Shown here piece by piece: positions 23,793 to 33,947 of a DNA stretch of 39,909 nucleotides. The stretch's first letter is position 1; each line of letters begins with the position of its first letter. The position numbers were made by a program, and so were the translations under genes. The notes beneath the pieces are model-generated. The model ran no database searches. It saw only the letters and a program-made list of their open reading frames with translations, and was not told where the DNA came from. This DNA comes from Actinomycetota bacterium (GTDB taxonomy: Bacteria; Actinomycetota; CADDZG01; WHSQ01), in assembly GCA_009380005.1 (NCBI GenBank), contig WHSQ01000002.1, forward strand, positions 1 through 39,909, read 5' to 3'.

Positions 23793-24005
23793 GTGAAGGT
23801 GAGGCTGCGCAACCCCGATCGGATCATCGAGGTGAGCGGGCCCCGGACGGTCCCGGACCTCCTGCGCTCGCTGGAGATCGTGCCGGAGGCCGTACTCGTC
23901 ATCCGGGACGCAACCCTGTTGACCCGGGACGAGGAACTGGAAGAGCACGACGAGCTGGAGGTTCGCCCCGTGCTCTCGGGCGGCGCGGGAGGGCCCGGCT
24001 CGTGA
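23793..24005 (+). CDS. ttuB: TtuB-like ubiquitin-fold sulfur carrier
   Basis: A 70-residue beta-grasp protein of the ThiS/MoaD/TtuB type: V-R-L-R-N-P-D-R-I-I-E-V, TVPDLLRSLEIVPEAVLVIRD, LEEHDELEVRPVLSGG. In Thermus TtuB the protein stops at the Gly-Gly, which becomes a thiocarboxylate and donates sulfur to TtuA. Here six more residues (A-G-G-P-G-S) follow before the stop, which overlaps the ttuA start (GTGA). The tail would have to be removed before activation, as is known for QbsE and CysO, or the downstream Gly-Gly is not used. No JAMM-type protease or E1-like activator gene is in the window. Gene symbol by context and similarity. Confidence 0.85.
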   Translation: MKVRLRNPDRIIEVSGPRTVPDLLRSLEIVPEAVLVIRDATLLTRDEELEEHDELEVRPVLSGGAGGPGS

Positions 24006-24994
24006 AGTGCAAGGTCTGCCGGGGGCACGCCGTCGTCGACATCCGGCGTCACAACGCGGCTTTCTGCACCGACCATTTCACGGAACACATCCACAACCAG
24101 GTCGCGAAGGCGATCAAGGAGTTCCACATGTTCGGGCCCGACGCCCGGCTCCTCATCGCCGTGTCCGGAGGCAAGGATTCCCTTGCTCTCTGGGACATCC
24201 TGCTGCAGCTCGGTTACGACGTCACCGGCTTCTACCTGGACCTCGGGATCGGAAGCTATTCGACCCGCTCGAAGGAGGCCACCATCGCCTTCGCCGAGGA
24301 GCGGGATGCCAAGCTCATCGTCCGATCGCTGGCCGAAGAGCACGGCTTCACGGTGCCGGAGCTGGCTTCGCTCACGAACCGCGTGCCCTGCTCGGGATGC
24401 GGCCTCAACAAGCGCTACGAGTTCAATCGGGCGGCTCTGGAGGAGGGCTTCGACATCCTCGTGACGGGCCACAACCTGGACGACGAGGTCGCGACCCTGT
24501 TCGGCAACGTCCTGCACTGGAACACCGACATGCTGGCCCGCCAAGGACCGGTCCTGGAAGAGAGGGTCCTGGGTGAAGGCGACCGGCGGCGTATGGCGCT
24601 CGTCCGGAAGGTGAAACCGTTGGTTCGCGTCGCCGAGCGGGAGACCGCGGCCTACGCCGTCGTGCGCGGGATCGACTACATCGTCGAAGAGTGCCCGATG
24701 GTGGAAGGCAACGTGCAACACAAGTACAAGGAAGCCATCGCGATGCTGGAAGAGTCCTCGCCCGGCACCAAGCACCAGATGTACTTCGGTTTCCTGAAGA
24801 AGGCGGCGTCACGCTTCGCAGACGAGACCGACGCCGCGAACCTCGTCGGATGTGCCAACTGCGGCTCGCCCACGATCGCACCGGAAGCCGGTTCGGATCG
24901 GGTGTGCTCCTTCTGCCGGATGCAGTCCCTGGCGCAGCGCCGGCGCGACGACGGTTACCGAGCGCGACCCGTGAGGGTGAGGAAGCGAAGATGA
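24002..24994 (+). CDS. ttuA: tRNA-5-methyluridine(54) 2-sulfurtransferase TtuA
   Basis: A 330-residue PP-loop ATPase that thiolates position 54 of tRNA, giving 2-thioribothymidine. Domains: N-terminal zinc finger (Cys3, Cys6, Cys22, His25), PP-loop SGGKDS at 55-60, the three [4Fe-4S] ligands Cys130 and Cys133 (PCSGCG) and Cys232 (EECPMVEGN), and a C-terminal zinc finger (Cys285, Cys288, Cys303, Cys306). The full ligand set matches TtuA rather than TtcA, and the neighbouring ttuB supports it. Best known from thermophiles. It overlaps ttuB (GTGA) and trmI (ATGA). Confidence 0.92.
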   Translation: MKCKVCRGHAVVDIRRHNAAFCTDHFTEHIHNQVAKAIKEFHMFGPDARLLIAVSGGKDSLALWDILLQLGYDVTGFYLDLGIGSYSTRSKEATIAFAEERDAKLIVRSLAEEHGFTVPELASLTNRVPCSGCGLNKRYEFNRAALEEGFDILVTGHNLDDEVATLFGNVLHWNTDMLARQGPVLEERVLGEGDRRRMALVRKVKPLVRVAERETAAYAVVRGIDYIVEECPMVEGNVQHKYKEAIAMLEESSPGTKHQMYFGFLKKAASRFADETDAANLVGCANCGSPTIAPEAGSDRVCSFCRMQSLAQRRRDDGYRARPVRVRKRR

Positions 24995-25791
24995 CGACCG
25001 GCCCGTTCCAGGCGGGGGAGCGAGCCCTGTTGCTGGATCTGCGCGGCCGCCGCTACCTCGTGACGCTCGCAACCGGCAGTAAGTTCCACTCCCATCATGG
25101 AGCGATCGAGCACGACGCGATCATCGGGAGCCGGGAGGGGTCGTTCGTCGCGGCGGGCGGAGGTTCGCGGATGCTGGTGGTGCGCCCGACCCTGGCGGAC
25201 TTCGTGCTGAAGATGAGTCGCGGCGCCCAGATCGTCTACCCGAAAGACATCGGTGCCATCCTGGTGGAGGCAGATATCTTCCCGGGCGCGACGGTGCTCG
25301 AAGCCGGCACCGGCTCGGGGTCGCTGACGCTCGCCCTAGCGCGCGCCGTCGGGGACGGAGGGCGCGTGATCTCTTACGAAGCACGCGACGACCACCATGC
25401 TCGCGCGGTCGAGAACGTGAACGCGTTCTACGAATCTCTCGGAGGCAAACCGGAGAACGTCGAGCTCCGCGTGGGGGACGTCTTCGAGGGCGTGCCCGAA
25501 CGGGGCATCGACCGGTTCGTGCTCGACCTCCCAGAACCTTGGCGAGCCGTGGGGGCGACCACGGAATCCCTGGTAGAAGGGGGGATCCTCTGCAGCTACC
25601 TGCCGACGATCCCCCAGATCCAACGGCTCGTAGAGGCGATGCGCGAGGGTGGTTTCGGGCTCATCAACACCTTCGAGATCCTTCGGCGAACGTGGAACGT
25701 CGAGGGTCAATCCGTGCGTCCCGACCACCGGATGGTGGCGCACACGGGGTTCATCGTGACGGGTCGCCGGCTCGCCGGCGGGGGCCTCTAA
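24991..25791 (+). CDS. trmI: tRNA (adenine-58-N1)-methyltransferase TrmI
   Basis: A 266-residue class I SAM methyltransferase. Features: an N-terminal beta domain with [14 protein letters not shown] and [30 protein letters not shown] motif [21 protein letters not shown], the catalytic-region [11 protein letters not shown] and SYLPTIPQI. It makes m1A58 in the T-loop. In Thermus, m1A58 promotes thiolation of T54, so the operon ttuB-ttuA-trmI encodes two interacting modifications. trmI just upstream of mpa/arc is a known actinobacterial arrangement (as in mycobacteria). Confidence 0.95.
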
Positions 25792-25841
25792 ACATTCCAC
25801 TTTGCCATCTTCAGGGAGTACGCTTCTCGTACGCCAGGGAG

Positions 25842-27608
25842 GTGAGAGCGGTTTCCGACGAACTCGAACGCAGGATCGCCCGTTACGACCGCGAGGTATC
25901 GGAGCTGCAAGGACAACTGAAGCTGGTCGAGGAAGAGCTCGTCCTGACCAAGCGCAGGCTGGACGCGGCCCCCCGCCAGATCCACGCCCTGGAGAAGAGG
26001 CTCGCGGAGACGTCGGCCGAGCTCGAGCGCGGCCGCGACAACAACGAGCGGATGGCGGACACCCTGCGGGAGGCTCGCGAGCAGCTCGTCACGCTGCGCG
26101 AAGAGGTCGAGAAACTGAGCCAGCCTCCCTCCAGCTATGGGATATTCCTCCAGCCCCAGGACGAGAACACGGCCGACGTCTTCACGAACGGCAGGAAGCT
26201 TCGGGTGAACGTCTCGCCCGAAGTCGATCGCTCCGCTCTACGCCGCGGCCAGGAGGTCTTGCTCAACGAGGCGATGAACGTCATCGGAGAGCGTGCCTAC
26301 GAGATCCAGGGCGAGGTGGTGATCCTCAAGGAGCTACTGGAGGACGGCGGGCGCGCGTTAGTGATCGCCCACACCGATGAGGAGAAGGTGGTGGAGCTGG
26401 GCGCGCCTCTGATCGGCGTTCCCCTGAGAGCAGGCGATTCACTCCTTCTCGAGCCGAGGTCGGGACACGTGCTCGAGAAACTGCCCAAGCCCGAGGTCGA
26501 GGAGCTCATCCTCGAGGAGGTGCCCGACATCGCCTACGAGGACATCGGGGGCCTGGCCGACCAGATCGAAGAGATCCGCGACGCGGTGGAGCTGCCCTAC
26601 CTACACGGGGATCTCTTCCGCGAGCACAAGCTCGAGCCACCCAAGGGCATCCTCCTGTACGGACCACCCGGGTGCGGGAAGACGCTCGTGGCGAAGGCGG
26701 TCGCCAACTCCCTCGCGAAACAGGTGGCGGAGAAGCTCGGCCGCTCCGATCGCCAGAGCTACTTCTTGAACATCAAGGGCCCCGAGTTACTCAACAAGTA
26801 CGTCGGGGAGACCGAACGTCAGATCCGGATGATCTTCCAGCGCGCCAAGGAGAAGTCGGAAGAGGGCGTACCGGTGATCGTGTTCTTCGACGAGATGGAT
26901 TCGCTCTTCCGAACACGTGGCTCGGGGATCTCCAGCGACATCGAATCGACGATCGTGCCGCAGCTGCTGGCGGAGATCGACGGTGTGGAGTCGCTGAAGA
27001 ACGTCATCGTCGTCGGCGCCTCGAACCGGGAAGACTTGATCGACCCTGCGATCCTGCGGCCCGGCCGTCTGGACGTGAAGATCAAGATCGAGCGCCCCGA
27101 CCAGGGCGCGGCCAAGGACATCTTCTCCAAGTACTTGACGTCGGAGATCCCGATAGCCGCGAGCGAGATCGAGATCCACCGCAGCGAGGACGCGGCCGTA
27201 GGGGCCCTGATCGAGGACACGGTCCAGAAGATGTATTCCGAGGACGACGACAACAGGTTCCTCGAGGTGACCTACGCGAACGGGGACAAGGAGACCTTGT
27301 TCTTCAAGGACTTCGCGTCGGGAGCGATGATCGAGAACATCGTGCGACGCGCGAAGAAGATGGCCATAAAGCGCGCCATCGCCGGGGGACCCAAGGGGAT
27401 AGGCAACCCCGACCTCATCCAGGCGATCCACCAGGAATACAAAGAGAACGAAGATCTCCCGAACACGACGTCGCCGGACGATTGGGCTCGCGTCTCCGGG
27501 AAGCGGGGCGAGCGCATCGTCTACATCCGGACCCTCGTGGGCGACGCAAAAGAGTCGTCCGAGGGTGGTCGCCAGGTCGAAAGGGTGCAGACGGGCCACT
27601 ACCTGTAG
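25842..27608 (+). CDS. mpa: Proteasome-associated AAA ATPase (Mpa/ARC)
   Basis: A 588-residue ring ATPase that binds Pup and threads pupylated proteins into the 20S proteasome. Layout: coiled coil at ~3-93 (Pup docking), tandem OB folds at ~97-225, AAA domain with Walker A GPPGCGKT at 274-281, Walker B VIVFFDE at 345-351 and arginine fingers at 406/409. It ends in G-H-Y-L, matching the penultimate-Tyr Q-Y-L gate-opening tail. The frame is open far upstream inside trmI; GTG 25842 fits the family start. An AGGGAGG box directly abuts this GTG, which is too close, so the start remains somewhat open; no other good start is nearby. Confidence 0.95.
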
Positions 27609-27628: not shown

Positions 27629-29113
27629 ATGGCTGTTCCGAAGATCTGCGGGGTCGAGACCGAGTTCGGCATCGCCGTGCGCGGCGCCGGCGAGTTCAAC
27701 CCGATCCTGACTTCCTCACTCTTGATCAACGCCTACGCCAAGCCCGCTTTCAAGCGTGTGAAGTGGGATTACGAGGAGGAGTCGCCGCTGCGCGACGCCC
27801 GGGGCTTCGAACACCAGCCCGAGCCGCAGCTGGAGGAGGACAGCGGGCTGGTGAACATCATCCTCCCGAACGGGTCCAGGTACTACGTGGACCATGCCCA
27901 TCCCGAGTACTCCAGCCCCGAGTGTGCCGACGCCCGATCGGCAGTCATCTGGGACAAGGCGGGGGAGACGATCCTGGCGGACTCCGTCGCCGCGGCTGCG
28001 CACCTCTTGACCGAGGGCGAGCAGGTGTTCATCTACAAGCACAATTCCGACGGCAAGGGGAACTCGTTCGGCTGCCACGAGAATTACCTCGTCGACCGGC
28101 AGACGCCGTTCCCGGACCTCGTCAAGCACCTGACGCCGTTCTTCGTGAGCCGGCAGGTATTCGCCGGAGCCGGCAAGGTGGGGGCCGAGAACTCACCCAA
28201 CGCGTCCGAGGTGGATTACCAGATCACGCAGCGAGCCGATTTCTTCGAAGTGGAAGTCGGTCTCGAGACGACGTTCAAGCGTCCGATCATCAATACGCGC
28301 GACGAACCCCACGCCGACCCCGAGATCTACCGGCGCCTCCACGTCATCGTCGGCGACGCCAACATGGCCGAGCTCCCGACGCTCCTCAAGATCGGAACGA
28401 CGGCGCTCATCCTCAAGATGATCGAGGACGAATACATCGAGGATGACTTCTCGCTGGCCGAGCCCGTCCGCTCCATGCGCGCCGTGTCGCACGACGTGGG
28501 CCTCGGCCAGACGTTGGAGCTCGCCGACGGACGTCGCATGACGGCTCTGGAGATGCAATGGGAGTACTACCGGCTCGCCAAGAAATACGCCCTCGACAAC
28601 GAGGACTCCGAGATCGTCGAAGACGTCCTGGAACGATGGGAGGGCGTGCTCGAGGGGCTGGAGACCGATCCGATGGAACTGGCGGATCAACTGGACTGGG
28701 TGGCGAAACTGAAGCTTCTGCGGGCCTACCGGGATCGCGACGGACTCGCCTGGGATCACGCCAAGATGAGACAGATCGACCTGCAGTATCACGACGTCGA
28801 CCGGGGGCGCTCGCTGTACTGGAAGCTGGTCGACAATGGCAAGATGCAGCGCCTGGTGACCGACGCCGAGATCGCATGGGCCGTGGACCATCCCCCCGAG
28901 GACACGAGGGCCTACTTCCGGGGGGAGTGCCTGCGTCGCTACTCGCCGAAGATCGTGGCAGCGTCGTGGGATGCGTTGATCTTCGACACCGGCGACGAGC
29001 CGCTTCGCAAGGTGCCCACGATGGACCCGACGAGGGGCACGAAAGCGCACGTGCAGGACCTGCTGGACGGCTCCACCGACGCCGGGGACCTGATAGCCAA
29101 GCTGAGCTCCTAG
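27629..29113 (+). CDS. dop: Pup deamidase/depupylase Dop
   Basis: A 494-residue member of the carboxylate-amine ligase-like family. It converts the C-terminal Gln of Pup to Glu and removes Pup from proteins. Metal-binding Glu10/Glu12 lie in GVETEFGIAV, the Dop-specific segment NPILTSSLLINAY...WDYEEESPLRDARGF (24-60) contains the Dop loop, and the catalytic-type Asp88 is in [44 protein letters not shown] is the shared family core. It is distinguished from PafA, encoded in the same window, by the loop and the NPxLTS start. Its substrate here should end in Gln, consistent with the G-G-Q of pup. Confidence 0.96.
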   Translation: MAVPKICGVETEFGIAVRGAGEFNPILTSSLLINAYAKPAFKRVKWDYEEESPLRDARGFEHQPEPQLEEDSGLVNIILPNGSRYYVDHAHPEYSSPECADARSAVIWDKAGETILADSVAAAAHLLTEGEQVFIYKHNSDGKGNSFGCHENYLVDRQTPFPDLVKHLTPFFVSRQVFAGAGKVGAENSPNASEVDYQITQRADFFEVEVGLETTFKRPIINTRDEPHADPEIYRRLHVIVGDANMAELPTLLKIGTTALILKMIEDEYIEDDFSLAEPVRSMRAVSHDVGLGQTLELADGRRMTALEMQWEYYRLAKKYALDNEDSEIVEDVLERWEGVLEGLETDPMELADQLDWVAKLKLLRAYRDRDGLAWDHAKMRQIDLQYHDVDRGRSLYWKLVDNGKMQRLVTDAEIAWAVDHPPEDTRAYFRGECLRRYSPKIVAASWDALIFDTGDEPLRKVPTMDPTRGTKAHVQDLLDGSTDAGDLIAKLSS

Positions 29114-29191: not shown

Positions 29192-29509
29192 ATGGCCGAA
29201 CAGACCCGTAGGGGCAAGCCCACCAAAGAGGAAGAAGCCGCGCCGCAAGAAGAGAAGGCCGCGGAAACCGAAGCGTCCGACGTCGACGACCTGCTGGACG
29301 AGATCGACGAGGTCCTCGAGATCAACGCCGAGGAGTTCGTTCGTTCGTACATCCAAAAAGGCGGCCAACTGGTAGTTCCTTCCAGTTTGCTAACGGGCCT
29401 ACACGCCTCCAATCGCCTCTGGGTGGCCGTTCTTCTGATAGGCGCCTTGGTGCTGCGACGGGTGGCCGAACGTCGATGGGCGCGTGATCCTGTCGCACCT
29501 CCTCGCTAA
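29192..29509 (+). CDS. pup: Prokaryotic ubiquitin-like protein Pup, with unusual C-terminal tail
   Basis: Residues 1-59 are a normal Pup: a disordered, Glu/Lys-rich N-terminus, then DVDDLLDEIDEVLEINAEEF, which binds Mpa, and the end V-R-S-Y-I-Q-K-G-G-Q (Gln59 at 29366-29368). Every Pup I know stops at this Gln or Glu, since its side chain is ligated to lysines. Here no stop follows; the frame continues for 46 residues (LVVPSSLLTGL..., including hydrophobic LWVAVLLIGALVL, then basic) to TAA 29507-29509. The tail would block Dop and PafA unless removed. A small hairpin (AACTGG/CCAGTT, 29367-29387) sits just at the junction. A true extension, stop loss in this lineage, or a sequence error are all possible. 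Confidence 0.88.
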   Translation: MAEQTRRGKPTKEEEAAPQEEKAAETEASDVDDLLDEIDEVLEINAEEFVRSYIQKGGQLVVPSSLLTGLHASNRLWVAVLLIGALVLRRVAERRWARDPVAPPR

Positions 29510-29555: not shown

Positions 29556-30014
29556 TTGGATCCGCGCGCTCGGAACGATCAGCTTTCCTTCGAAGGCCGC
29601 CATGTGAGGCCAGGACACAAGAGATGTCCGCGATGCACCGGCATCAAGCCCTTGGCAGACTTCGTCAGGAATCGTTCACGTCCCGATGGGCATGGGACCT
29701 ATTGCCTTCCCTGCAATGCCGCCAGGAATAGGGAATATGTTCAGCGCAAACACGGCGGCTACTCCCACTATCGATTGATGCAGAAGTACGGCATCGGACG
29801 TTCTGGCGTCGATGCGATGATCGAGGTGCAGGGTGGGCTGTGCCCGATCTGTGAGAAGCGGCCCGCCGTCCATGTCGACCACGACCACCGAACCGGCCGG
29901 GTCAGAGAGATACTGTGCGAGCTCTGCAACGGCACGCTTGGGGCCTTCCGAGACGATCCCGCGATCATCGCCAAAGCCATTACTTACCTCGAAGCTCACC
30001 GTGCGACAGATTAG
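29556..30014 (+). CDS. Endonuclease VII-like HNH protein, first copy
   Basis: A 152-residue zinc-binding nuclease-like protein. The N-terminal zinc ribbon is Cys24, Cys27, Cys50, Cys53 (KRCPRC...TYCLPC). The nuclease domain resembles recombination endonuclease VII: CPIC (96/99), HVDHDH at 106-111, ILCELCN at 119-125. All catalytic-type residues are present, so it is probably active on DNA. The frame is open upstream to 29484, but TTG 29556 follows AGGAGG; GTG 29604 is another option. I recall a single endonuclease VII-like gene at this site in Streptomyces/Frankia proteasome loci (unverified). It may act on branched or damaged DNA; this is inference. Confidence 0.82.
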   Translation: MDPRARNDQLSFEGRHVRPGHKRCPRCTGIKPLADFVRNRSRPDGHGTYCLPCNAARNREYVQRKHGGYSHYRLMQKYGIGRSGVDAMIEVQGGLCPICEKRPAVHVDHDHRTGRVREILCELCNGTLGAFRDDPAIIAKAITYLEAHRATD

Positions 30015-30402
30015 ATGTCCATCCTGTAAGCGGGTGAAATCCCCCGAGGATTTCCCGCGCAACCGCGCCACGAAGAGCGGACGAGCCACCTACTGCCGGC
30101 CGTGCCACAACCGGATCATGAGGGCCAATCGGCAGACGCACTACGGCAGTGATCGCAACTTCCAGCTTGTCCGCCGGTATGGGGTCGACGCGGTCCAGGT
30201 CGAGTGGATGATCTTGCAGCAGGGTGGCGTCTGCGCCTTGTGTCGTGAGGCGAATCCCAGGCACGTGGATCACGATCATCGCTCGGGGAAGGTTCGAGGG
30301 ATCCTGTGCTTCAACTGCAACAAGGGCCTAGGGAAGGTCGAGGACGGCCCGGATGTTCTACGGAGGGCGATGGACTATCTTCTGGCGCATGGGTCTGGAT
30401 GA
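30001..30402 (+). CDS. Endonuclease VII-like HNH protein, second copy
   Basis: A 133-residue paralogue of the preceding protein with the same architecture: zinc ribbon Cys6, Cys9, Cys32, Cys35; CALC (78/81); HVDHDH (88-93); ILCFNCN (101-107); and an A-x-x-Y-L-x-A-H end in both copies. It overlaps the first copy by 14 bp and prcB by 14 bp, and the prcB -10 box lies within its last codons. The start is taken as GTG 30001, since upstream codons in this frame are out of family. Identity to copy 1 is clear but moderate, so the duplication is not recent. Confidence 0.82.
   Translation: MRQIRCPSCKRVKSPEDFPRNRATKSGRATYCRPCHNRIMRANRQTHYGSDRNFQLVRRYGVDAVQVEWMILQQGGVCALCREANPRHVDHDHRSGKVRGILCFNCNKGLGKVEDGPDVLRRAMDYLLAHGSG
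30376..30381 (+). promoter_or_regulatory. -10 box TATCTT of prcB inside the second HNH gene
   Basis: TATCTT, then CTGGCGC (7 nt), then ATG 30389 of prcB. The match supports this start and a leaderless prcBA transcript separate from pup. Confidence 0.6.
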
Positions 30403-31249
30403 CCAAGGGTTCGGAGACGTGATCGGGCGGCCCCTGTACGGGCCCGGCTCGTCCTTCTCCGATTTCCTCTCCGGCCACTCACCAGAGATACTGCCCCGGA
30501 TGGACTCCAAGGGTCCGGCCCCCATACCGGAGGGCACCACCGTCCTCGCACTCCGCTACGCCGAGGGAGTGATCATCGCCGGCGACCGCCGGGCGACCGA
30601 GGGCTTCCAGATCGCTCACCGCTCGATCGAGAAGGTCTTCGCCGCGGACGACATGAGCGCGGTCGCCATCGCGGGTGCGGCGGGGCCGGCGATAGAGATG
30701 GTCCGGCTGTTCCAGACCGAGCTCGAGCACTACGAGAAGGTCGAGGGCGATCGCCTGACGCTCGAGGGCAAGGCCAACAAGCTCTCGCAGATGATCCGGG
30801 CGAACCTGCCGATGGCGGTGCAGGGCATGGTCGTGGTCCCGCTCTTCGCGGGCTACGACGAGGCACGGGAGATGGGCCGGCTGTTCAAGTACGACGTGAC
30901 CGGCGGCCGCTACGAGGAGGACGACTACCACGCCACCGGCTCGGGCGGCAAGGACGCCCGCTCCAGCCTCAAGAAACGGTGGAAGGCCGACCTGACCCGG
31001 GAAGCGGCCGTGAAGGTGGCTATCGAGGCTCTCTTCGACGCGGCGGACGAAGACGTCGGGACCGGCGGGCCGGATCTCGTGCGCGGCATCTTCCCGACGG
31101 TGGCCGCGATCAGCGCAGCCGGGATGCAGGAGATCCACGAGGACGAGGTCCGTACCCTGTTCGAGGAGCTCATCGCCGATCGCAGCATCGAGCTCCGCAG
31201 GCCCGAATCGCATCCGGTAGACCTTCGGCGTCCGGGAGACGAACGCTGA
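30389..31249 (+). CDS. prcB: Proteasome beta subunit PrcB
   Basis: A 286-residue precursor. The first 49 residues are the propeptide, cleaved before Thr50 in E-G-T-T-V-L-A-L-R-Y. Counting from this Thr1, the other active-site residues fall exactly at Asp17 (AGDRR) and Lys33 (IEKVF). ATG 30389 is chosen over ATG 30353 because it gives a usual propeptide length and is preceded by a TATCTT box. Downstream regions G-Y-D (near 155), Y-H-A-T-G-S-G and RGIFPTVAAI fit the family. The stop overlaps the prcA start (TGATG). Confidence 0.96.
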   Translation: MGLDDQGFGDVIGRPLYGPGSSFSDFLSGHSPEILPRMDSKGPAPIPEGTTVLALRYAEGVIIAGDRRATEGFQIAHRSIEKVFAADDMSAVAIAGAAGPAIEMVRLFQTELEHYEKVEGDRLTLEGKANKLSQMIRANLPMAVQGMVVVPLFAGYDEAREMGRLFKYDVTGGRYEEDDYHATGSGGKDARSSLKKRWKADLTREAAVKVAIEALFDAADEDVGTGGPDLVRGIFPTVAAISAAGMQEIHEDEVRTLFEELIADRSIELRRPESHPVDLRRPGDER

Positions 31250-31941
31250 TGCCGATGCCGTACTACGTCTCGCCGGAGCAATTGATGAAGGACAAGGCCG
31301 ACTACGCGCGTAAGGGCATCGCTCGCGGCAAGTCGGTTATCGCGCTCGAATACGCGGACGGGATAGCGTTCGTCGCCGAGAACCCCAGCGCTACGCTTCA
31401 CAAGATCTCCGAGATCTACGATCGCATCGCCTTCGCCGGCGTCGGCAAGTTCAACGAGTTCGAGCAGCTGCGCATCGGCGGTATCCGGCTCGTCGACATG
31501 AAGGGCTACTCGTATTCGCGGGAAGACGTCACGGCGAAGGGCCTCGCCAACGCTTACGCACAGACGTTGGGGAACATCTTCACGTCGGAGCTGAAGCCCT
31601 ACGAGTGCGAGATCCTCGTCGCTTCGGTGGGGGAGGCGACCGACAGGAACGAGCTCTTCCACATCCTCTACGACGGTTCCGTCACCGACCGCACCGGATG
31701 GGTCGTCATGGGTGGACAGTCGGATGCCCTCAACACCTTCTTCGAGAACAACTACCCAAAGGGCTACCCAACCTCGGTCCCGACACTGGCGGAAGCCATC
31801 AAGCTCGGACACAAGGCGATGACGTCGGTGGAGAGCCGTGAGATAGCCCCGAACGCGCTCGAGGTCGCCGTCCTGGACCGCAACCGTTCCCGCCGCAAGT
31901 TCAGACGCCTGAACGAGAAGGACCTCCCCAAACTCGGCTGA
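31249..31941 (+). CDS. prcA: Proteasome alpha subunit PrcA
   Basis: A 230-residue alpha subunit that forms the outer rings and the gate of the 20S core. It starts MPMPYYVSPEQLMKDKADYARKGIARGKSVIAL, and continues FVAENPSATLHKISEIYDRIAFAGVGKFNEFEQLR and L-A-N-A-Y-A-Q-T-L-G. The catalytic Thr is absent, as expected. It ends with the usual LEVAVLDRNRSRRKFRRL. It is coupled to prcB by a one-base overlap. No terminator with a T-tract follows, only a weak GC-rich hairpin (CCGGCG/CGCCGG, 31962-31981). Confidence 0.97.
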   Translation: MPMPYYVSPEQLMKDKADYARKGIARGKSVIALEYADGIAFVAENPSATLHKISEIYDRIAFAGVGKFNEFEQLRIGGIRLVDMKGYSYSREDVTAKGLANAYAQTLGNIFTSELKPYECEILVASVGEATDRNELFHILYDGSVTDRTGWVVMGGQSDALNTFFENNYPKGYPTSVPTLAEAIKLGHKAMTSVESREIAPNALEVAVLDRNRSRRKFRRLNEKDLPKLG

Positions 31942-32594: not shown

Positions 32595-33947
32595 GTGGAG
32601 AGACGGATATTCGGGACCGAGAACGAGTACGGCGTCACCTGCACGTTCAGGGGCCAGCGCCGCCTGTCTCCGGACGAGGTCGCCCGCTACCTCTTCCGGC
32701 GGGTGGTGTCGTGGGGCCGGTCGTCCAACGTCTTCCTGGAGAACGGGGCCCGGCTCTACCTCGACGTCGGATCCCACCCGGAGTACGCCACCCCCGAGTG
32801 TGACACCGTGTACGACCTGGTCGTCCACGACAAGGCCGGGGAACGGATCCTAGAAGGTCTCCTGAAGGCGGCCGAGGCCCGGCTCCGAGAAGAGGGCATC
32901 TCCGGGGACATCTACCTCTTCAAGAACAACACCGACTCGGCGGGCAACTCCTACGGAAGCCACGAGAACTACCTCGTGTCGCGGTACGGGGAGTTCGGTC
33001 GGCTGGCGGAGGTCATGATCCCCTTCTTCGTGACGCGCCAGATCTTCGCCGGCGCCGGGAAGGTCCTGCAAACCGCCAGGGGAGCTCTGTTCTGCATCTC
33101 CCAGCGCGCCGAACACATCTGGGAGGGCGTGTCGTCCGCGACCACGAGATCCCGACCGATCATCAACACCCGGGACGAGCCGCACGCGGATGCAGAGAAG
33201 TACCGGCGCCTCCACGTCATCGTGGGGGACTCGAACATGAGCGAGTGGGCCTCGTATGTGAAGGTCGGCACGACGGCGCTCCTTCTCAGGATGCTCGAAG
33301 AAGGCGTCCAGATCCGCGACATGACCTTGGAGAACCCGATCCGAGCCATCCGTGAGATCTCACACGACACCACGTGCAGGCGACGCGTGCGGCTCGCCAA
33401 CGGACGGGAGCTCTCGGCCCTCGACATGCAGAAGGAGTACCTGGAGAAGGCCCTGCGGTGGGTCGACCATCGCGACGACCAGGTGCTGAAGGACATCGCG
33501 CACCGGTGGGAACACGTCATCACGAACCTAGAGGACGACCAAGACGCGCTCGACACCGAGGTCGACTGGATCATGAAGCGAAAGCTGATCGAGGGCTACC
33601 GGTCGCGGCACAGCCTCTCGCTCGCTCACCCCCGTGTCGCTCTCATGGACCTCGCTTACCACGATGTCTCTCGCAAGCGCGGCCTCTACTACATGCTCGA
33701 GCGTCGTCAGATGGCGGAACGAGTCTGCGACGAGCGCGACATCGAGCTGGCCACCCAACAGCCTCCGCAGACGACCCGGGCAAGATTACGCGGCGAATTC
33801 ATCCGCGCGGCCAAGCGCAAGCGTCGCGACTTCACGGTGGACTGGGTGCATCTGAAGCTCAACGACCAGGCCCAGCGGACCGTCCTCTGTAAGGATCCTT
33901 TCCGTTCCACCGACGAACGCGTGGCTAAGCTGATCGCATCGCTCTGA
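32595..33947 (+). CDS. pafA: Pup-protein ligase PafA
   Basis: A 450-residue ligase that joins the C-terminal Glu of Pup to lysine side chains using ATP. It closely matches the mycobacterial enzyme: Glu9/Glu11 in G-T-E-N-E-Y-G-V metal site, [20 protein letters not shown], catalytic Asp57 in [44 protein letters not shown] and the C-terminal [10 protein letters not shown]. Lacking the Dop loop, it is distinct from the earlier homologue. The stop overlaps the next start by one base. Confidence 0.98.

Follow-up and report, generated by a model that had tools for sequence, protein, structure and literature searches.

A pup gene open beyond its Gly-Gly-Gln end in a single actinobacterial genome most likely reflects a recent stop-codon loss, not a new kind of Pup precursor

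Pup is a small tag by which proteins are marked for degradation. Does a pup gene whose reading frame runs on past the codons for its Gly-Gly-Gln end encode a precursor that has to be matured, or has an ordinary gene lost its stop codon? Pup proteins are described as ending in G-[EQ] (PMC2588565), and it is the side chain of this C-terminal residue that is deamidated by Dop and activated by PafA (PMC8599861). The gene in question belongs to a single uncultured actinobacterium, with a genome of 3.8 Mb in 639 contigs that is estimated to be 100% complete. The whole stretch of DNA analysed, here called the window, comprises 39,909 nucleotides, and pup is placed well within a 128 kb contig with continuous gene order.

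The open frame (29192-29506, plus strand) encodes a protein of 105 amino acids that starts with MAEQ, reaches the end of the Pup core at SYIQKGGQ and continues for 46 further codons (Table 1). The Pfam Pup match ends exactly at GGQ of the extended frame, and the codon usage of the core, with a GC3 of 0.763, is typical of the operon. Residues 60-105, the tail, read LVVPSSLLTGLHASNRLWVAVLLIGALVLRRVAERRWARDPVAPPR and include a hydrophobic stretch of about LWVAVLLIGALVL. The first-pass annotation had described a 59-residue Pup ending in K-G-G-Q with 46 codons beyond it, a description that translation and the Pfam match both support, and the hydrophobic stretch and basic end that it assigned to the tail are visible in the translation. 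A second, ordinary pup, which it had named as counter-evidence, was not found anywhere in the genome; the sole other match (E 0.67) fell far below the cut-off. Since the Pfam match ends at the Gln, the frame runs as stated and pup is single in a genome estimated to be complete, we consider the observation itself correctly described. The gene has the Pup domain with its helical core and QKGG[QE] motif, and it lies in a locus with dop, pafA, ARC and the usually present prcBA. Gln or Glu is the last residue in all 133 comparison genes and is not the last residue here.

Table 1. Features of the extended pup gene and of the Pup-proteasome locus in the window.
Feature	Position	Strand	Basis
ARC/Mpa proteasomal ATPase, C-terminus ...TGHYL	25791..27608	+	ORF translation, sequence and position; start codon uncertain
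Dop, Pup deamidase/depupylase	27629..29113	+	Pfam Pup_ligase, E 2.9e-177
Pup core, 59 aa, ends K-G-G-Q	29192..29368	+	Pfam Pup PF05639, E 1.1e-20, residues 8-59
Tail, 46 codons after Gln59, hydrophobic stretch and basic end	29369..29506	+	Translation; codon usage
CTG where all other pup genes have a stop	29369..29371	+	133/133 others TAG/TGA/TAA; ungapped alignment with L016
CTTCCAGTTT, matches non-coding 3' flank of pup in two relatives, both from one related genus	29379..29388	+	L016/L022 identity
TAA, stop actually reached	29507..29509	+	Translation
Endonuclease VII-like (HNH), first; likely start TTG 29556 behind AGGAGG	29556..30014	+	PF02945, E 1.1e-23
Endonuclease VII-like, second; start uncertain	30001..30402	+	PF02945, E 2.4e-21
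PrcB, proteasome beta subunit; start uncertain	30353..31249	+	Pfam Proteasome, E 1.6e-38
PrcA, proteasome alpha subunit	31255..31941	+	Pfam Proteasome, E 7.4e-17
PafA, Pup ligase	32595..33947	+	Pfam Pup_ligase, E 1.6e-166

To place the extension in a wider context, pup genes of related genomes were compared. The family is represented by 16 genomes including the source, in 14 of which pup is detectable, and all of these genes except that of the source stop immediately after GGQ or GGE, as do those of 80 loci from GTDB genomes. When distinct pup genes were pooled (n=134), 133 stopped at once (72 with TAG, 48 with TGA and 13 with TAA), and CTG followed the Gln/Glu codon in the source's gene only. 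Two patterns, which between them cover the stop codons, TGG and all sense codons beginning with A, C or G, were searched in 396 Actinomycetota genomes: the Pup end followed by an A-, C- or G-initial codon occurred in four places, and the motif followed by TRR in 156 of the genomes, with no TGG among the matches listed. The source's pup was one of the four places; the other three (L115-L117) were rejected as further extended Pups, being unrelated proteins that carry the end motif before a non-stop codon. Matches of tblastn to residue 104 in Acidimicrobiales were likewise discarded as tails, being stop codons read through; all of these genes, L049 and L083 included in the stop check, end at GGQ. 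Every relative thus stops directly after GGQ or GGE in the comparison that the first-pass annotation had proposed, and therefore the data compared contain no lineage with a pre-Pup. A Pup precursor or a natural C-terminally extended Pup was not found in the literature searched either, which lay mostly outside subscription journals.

The tail differs from the core in its composition. Its synonymous codon usage lies 7.8 standard deviations below that of 46-codon pieces taken from six neighbouring genes in the window (z = -7.8), and its GC3 is 0.565, compared with 0.83-0.88 in neighbouring genes. Part of this codon signal may be regional, since the adjoining endonuclease VII genes also have a GC3 that is intermediate and below that of the operon; the tail nevertheless lies lower than any piece of them.

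Searches of the source genome and of the 24 genomes of the class, both around pup and away from it, gave no meaningful homologue of the tail, only weak hits to unrelated sequence. Its DNA does share short identities with the region just past the pup stop codon in L016 and L022, which both belong to one related genus. The shared bases (CTTCCAGTT/T) number 10 in a row in L016 and 9 in a row in L022, in both cases at the distance from the Gln/Glu codon that they have in the tail. Apart from 40-mers that overlap the site itself, random ones drawn from L016 reach no more than 7 bases, and the number of 40-mers scoring 10 is that expected from this overlap. Because the flank of these relatives and the tail have these 10 and 9 bases in common, the tail seems to have been 3' non-coding DNA in the past, and because the matches lie at the same distance, CTG occupies the position of the relatives' TAG or TGA; in the ungapped alignment to L016, it stands opposite TAG. 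The change from the relatives amounts to two neighbouring substitutions (CTG versus TAG) or to a 4-base insertion (CAA-CTGG-TAG), which would explain it too. Other sources of the tail were considered and rejected: a mobile element or repeat, as the genome holds no other copy beyond short chance matches, and a homologous small membrane protein, for which only weak matches in unrelated contexts were obtained. A search for a terminator or promoter inside the tail gave one weak terminator-like site (29413-29426), within the range of chance.

An opening of 46 codons arises fairly commonly by chance, 35% of shuffled tails being open. The hydrophobic stretch exceeds chance expectation: no more than one among 131 other read-through tails comes up to it, as do 0.1-4% of shuffles, depending on window length. 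It could be a hint of function. It counts as weak evidence, because the hydrophobicity had been noticed before it was tested.

The genes around pup follow the order ARC, dop, pup, two endonuclease VII-like genes, prcB, prcA, pafA and two WYL-type regulators, with ARC and the regulators named from sequence and position rather than by a database match. Dop and PafA, both placed in the window by the first-pass annotation, were recovered as Pfam Pup_ligase matches. Dop shares 70-75% identity with its counterparts in genomes of the same family, which is within the range seen among these, and PafA is 89% identical to the proteins of L032 and L034, genomes of the same family. Among the columns whose conservation reaches 98% or more in 93 Dop and 69 PafA sequences, each protein has a single deviation (Y147F in Dop, L222V in PafA), both ordinary among the sequences compared. 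By eye, ARC ends in TGHYL and PrcB retains its GTTVLALR processing site. Judged from their sequences, the genes for Dop, PafA, ARC and the proteasome are undamaged and conserved to a normal degree, and neither the Dop and PafA columns nor ARC and PrcB inspected by eye gave a sign of decay or of adaptation to an extended Pup. In the same column test, PafA of L073 and L084 stands far apart from the rest, with deviations at 18 near-invariant columns.

Two further features of the neighbourhood were recorded. Two tandem endonuclease VII-like genes sit between pup and prcB, and one or two such genes lie directly 3' of pup in 13 of the 136 other loci with enough downstream sequence, spanning several distantly related lineages. 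Their GC3 falls below the operon's, which suggests a passenger that is mobile or under loose constraint, and a site occupied in some loci and empty in others would be in keeping with a homing-type element; an association between pupylation and endonuclease VII was not found in the literature searched for both topics. Upstream of ARC (23793-25791) lie genes for a small MoaD/ThiS-like protein (23793-24005), an NcsA/TtcA-like tRNA thiolation protein (24002-24994) and a tRNA methyltransferase-like ORF, all named from sequence only, so that a putative ubiquitin-fold sulphur carrier adjoins the Pup system.

Taken together, the non-coding codon usage of the tail and its conserved non-coding ancestry argue for a private stop-codon loss. 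We favour the reading that an ordinary single-copy pup has lost its stop codon in one genome, probably recently, and that the gene most likely represents a mutation in that genome and no new kind of Pup precursor. Where relatives have TAG or TGA after GGQ/GGE this gene has CTG, from which the frame runs 46 codons into DNA of non-coding composition, and the product, if translated, would be a linear Pup fusion with a short hydrophobic, basic tail. As Gln59 is then internal and the active sites of Dop and PafA take the terminal residue, Dop should not deamidate this protein and PafA should not ligate it. As its ARC-binding part is intact, the protein should be recognised like other Pup fusions and would probably pass to the proteasome; ARC-20S degrades linear Pup-GFP (PMC6017811), and translational Pup fusions are degraded by ARC/Mpa-20S (PMC12288473). 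Unless ordinary proteases cut the tail back to Gln59, such a strain would pupylate weakly or not at all. The lesion could nevertheless persist for a while, since Streptomyces coelicolor remains viable and grows when pup is deleted (PMC11356632). With Pup core and enzymes intact, their undecayed state would fit only a recent loss, an artefact of the sequence or continued function through adequate trimming.

The second of these, an error of assembly, consensus or strain mixture, with a normal stop after GGQ in the living population, is in our estimate unlikely. It would account for a tail that is private to one assembly of 639 contigs and for a pathway that is otherwise without decay, but the gene lies deep inside its contig in continuous gene order and no single-base error produces GGQ followed by a stop. 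The first-pass annotation had rightly made this last point, a one-base deletion yielding GGQL; either a pair of neighbouring substitutions or an indel of four bases is required. Because two adjacent bases would need to be wrong, a real mutation is more likely than a read error. Among the three options which that annotation had left (a pre-Pup cut by a protease, some other solution that the lineage tolerates, or an error), the last thus comes nearest, with mutation of the gene itself preferred to misreading of it.

Its option of a true pre-Pup, in which the tail would be a pro-peptide or membrane anchor and a protease would cut after Gln59 to release a working Pup in the manner of ubiquitin or SUMO, gained no supporting finding, and we regard it as distinctly improbable. 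The intact Pup core, Dop and PafA and the unusually hydrophobic tail with its basic end speak for it; against it stand the absence of the tail from every relative, its non-coding codon usage, the derivation of its DNA from non-coding flank and the lack of any described Pup precursor in the literature searched. A precursor of the ubiquitin type would call for a C-terminal peptide conserved in the lineage and under selection at the protein level, and what we found is a private tail with the codon usage of non-coding DNA. The locus holds no candidate for a dedicated processing protease beyond its usual genes. The more specific idea that Pup is kept as a membrane-anchored or masked precursor, with the cut after Gln59 switching pupylation on as a prokaryotic counterpart of ubiquitin-precursor maturation, is very unlikely.

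Use of the extended Pup untrimmed, with the Dop and PafA of this organism acting on the internal Gln59 side chain, appears barely plausible. The bond does go to the side chain and not to the terminal carboxylate, and the Pup C-terminus is poorly ordered and weakly held in the PafA complex, but Dop grips the terminal residue through many contacts in its active site in the available structures (PMC8599861), and neither enzyme has unusual substitutions that would make room for a tail. Least credible is recoding by a +1 shift at CAA-C-TGG-TAG, in which ribosomes would stop at the TAG that does lie in the +1 frame one codon beyond Gln59, but the product would end in GGQW (GGQL by a one-base deletion) and still not in GGQ, no slippery run is seen at the site by eye, and the arrangement is absent from relatives.

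The extended pup is thus a genuine anomaly confined to one genome, a stop-loss allele of a known gene, and its interest is modest, short of protein data revealing a matured Pup. All other Pups examined end exactly at the reactive residue, and this natural gene, which breaks the rule, therefore lends itself to testing whether a free Gln/Glu terminus is really required by Dop and PafA and whether cells are able to trim an extended Pup. Should it carry no more than a recent lesion, it provides an example of pupylation switched off by the loss of a stop codon while the enzymes are still intact.

Among known systems, the precursors of eukaryotic ubiquitin and SUMO resemble it in being modifiers with residues past their functional C-terminus. 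Their tails are a conserved, family-wide feature removed by dedicated proteases, whereas that of the present Pup is private and non-coding in composition, and we know of no protease for it. Laboratory fusions such as Pup-GFP share the linear arrangement of Pup followed by further protein in frame; they are degraded by ARC/Mpa-20S (PMC6017811, PMC12288473), while the present fusion is natural and has a short hydrophobic tail. With the Pups of Actinomycetota (PF05639), it has in common the core sequence, the G-G-Q motif, the single copy and the position between dop and the proteasome genes, and it differs from them in that the known ones end in G-[EQ] (PMC2588565) and this one continues for 46 residues.
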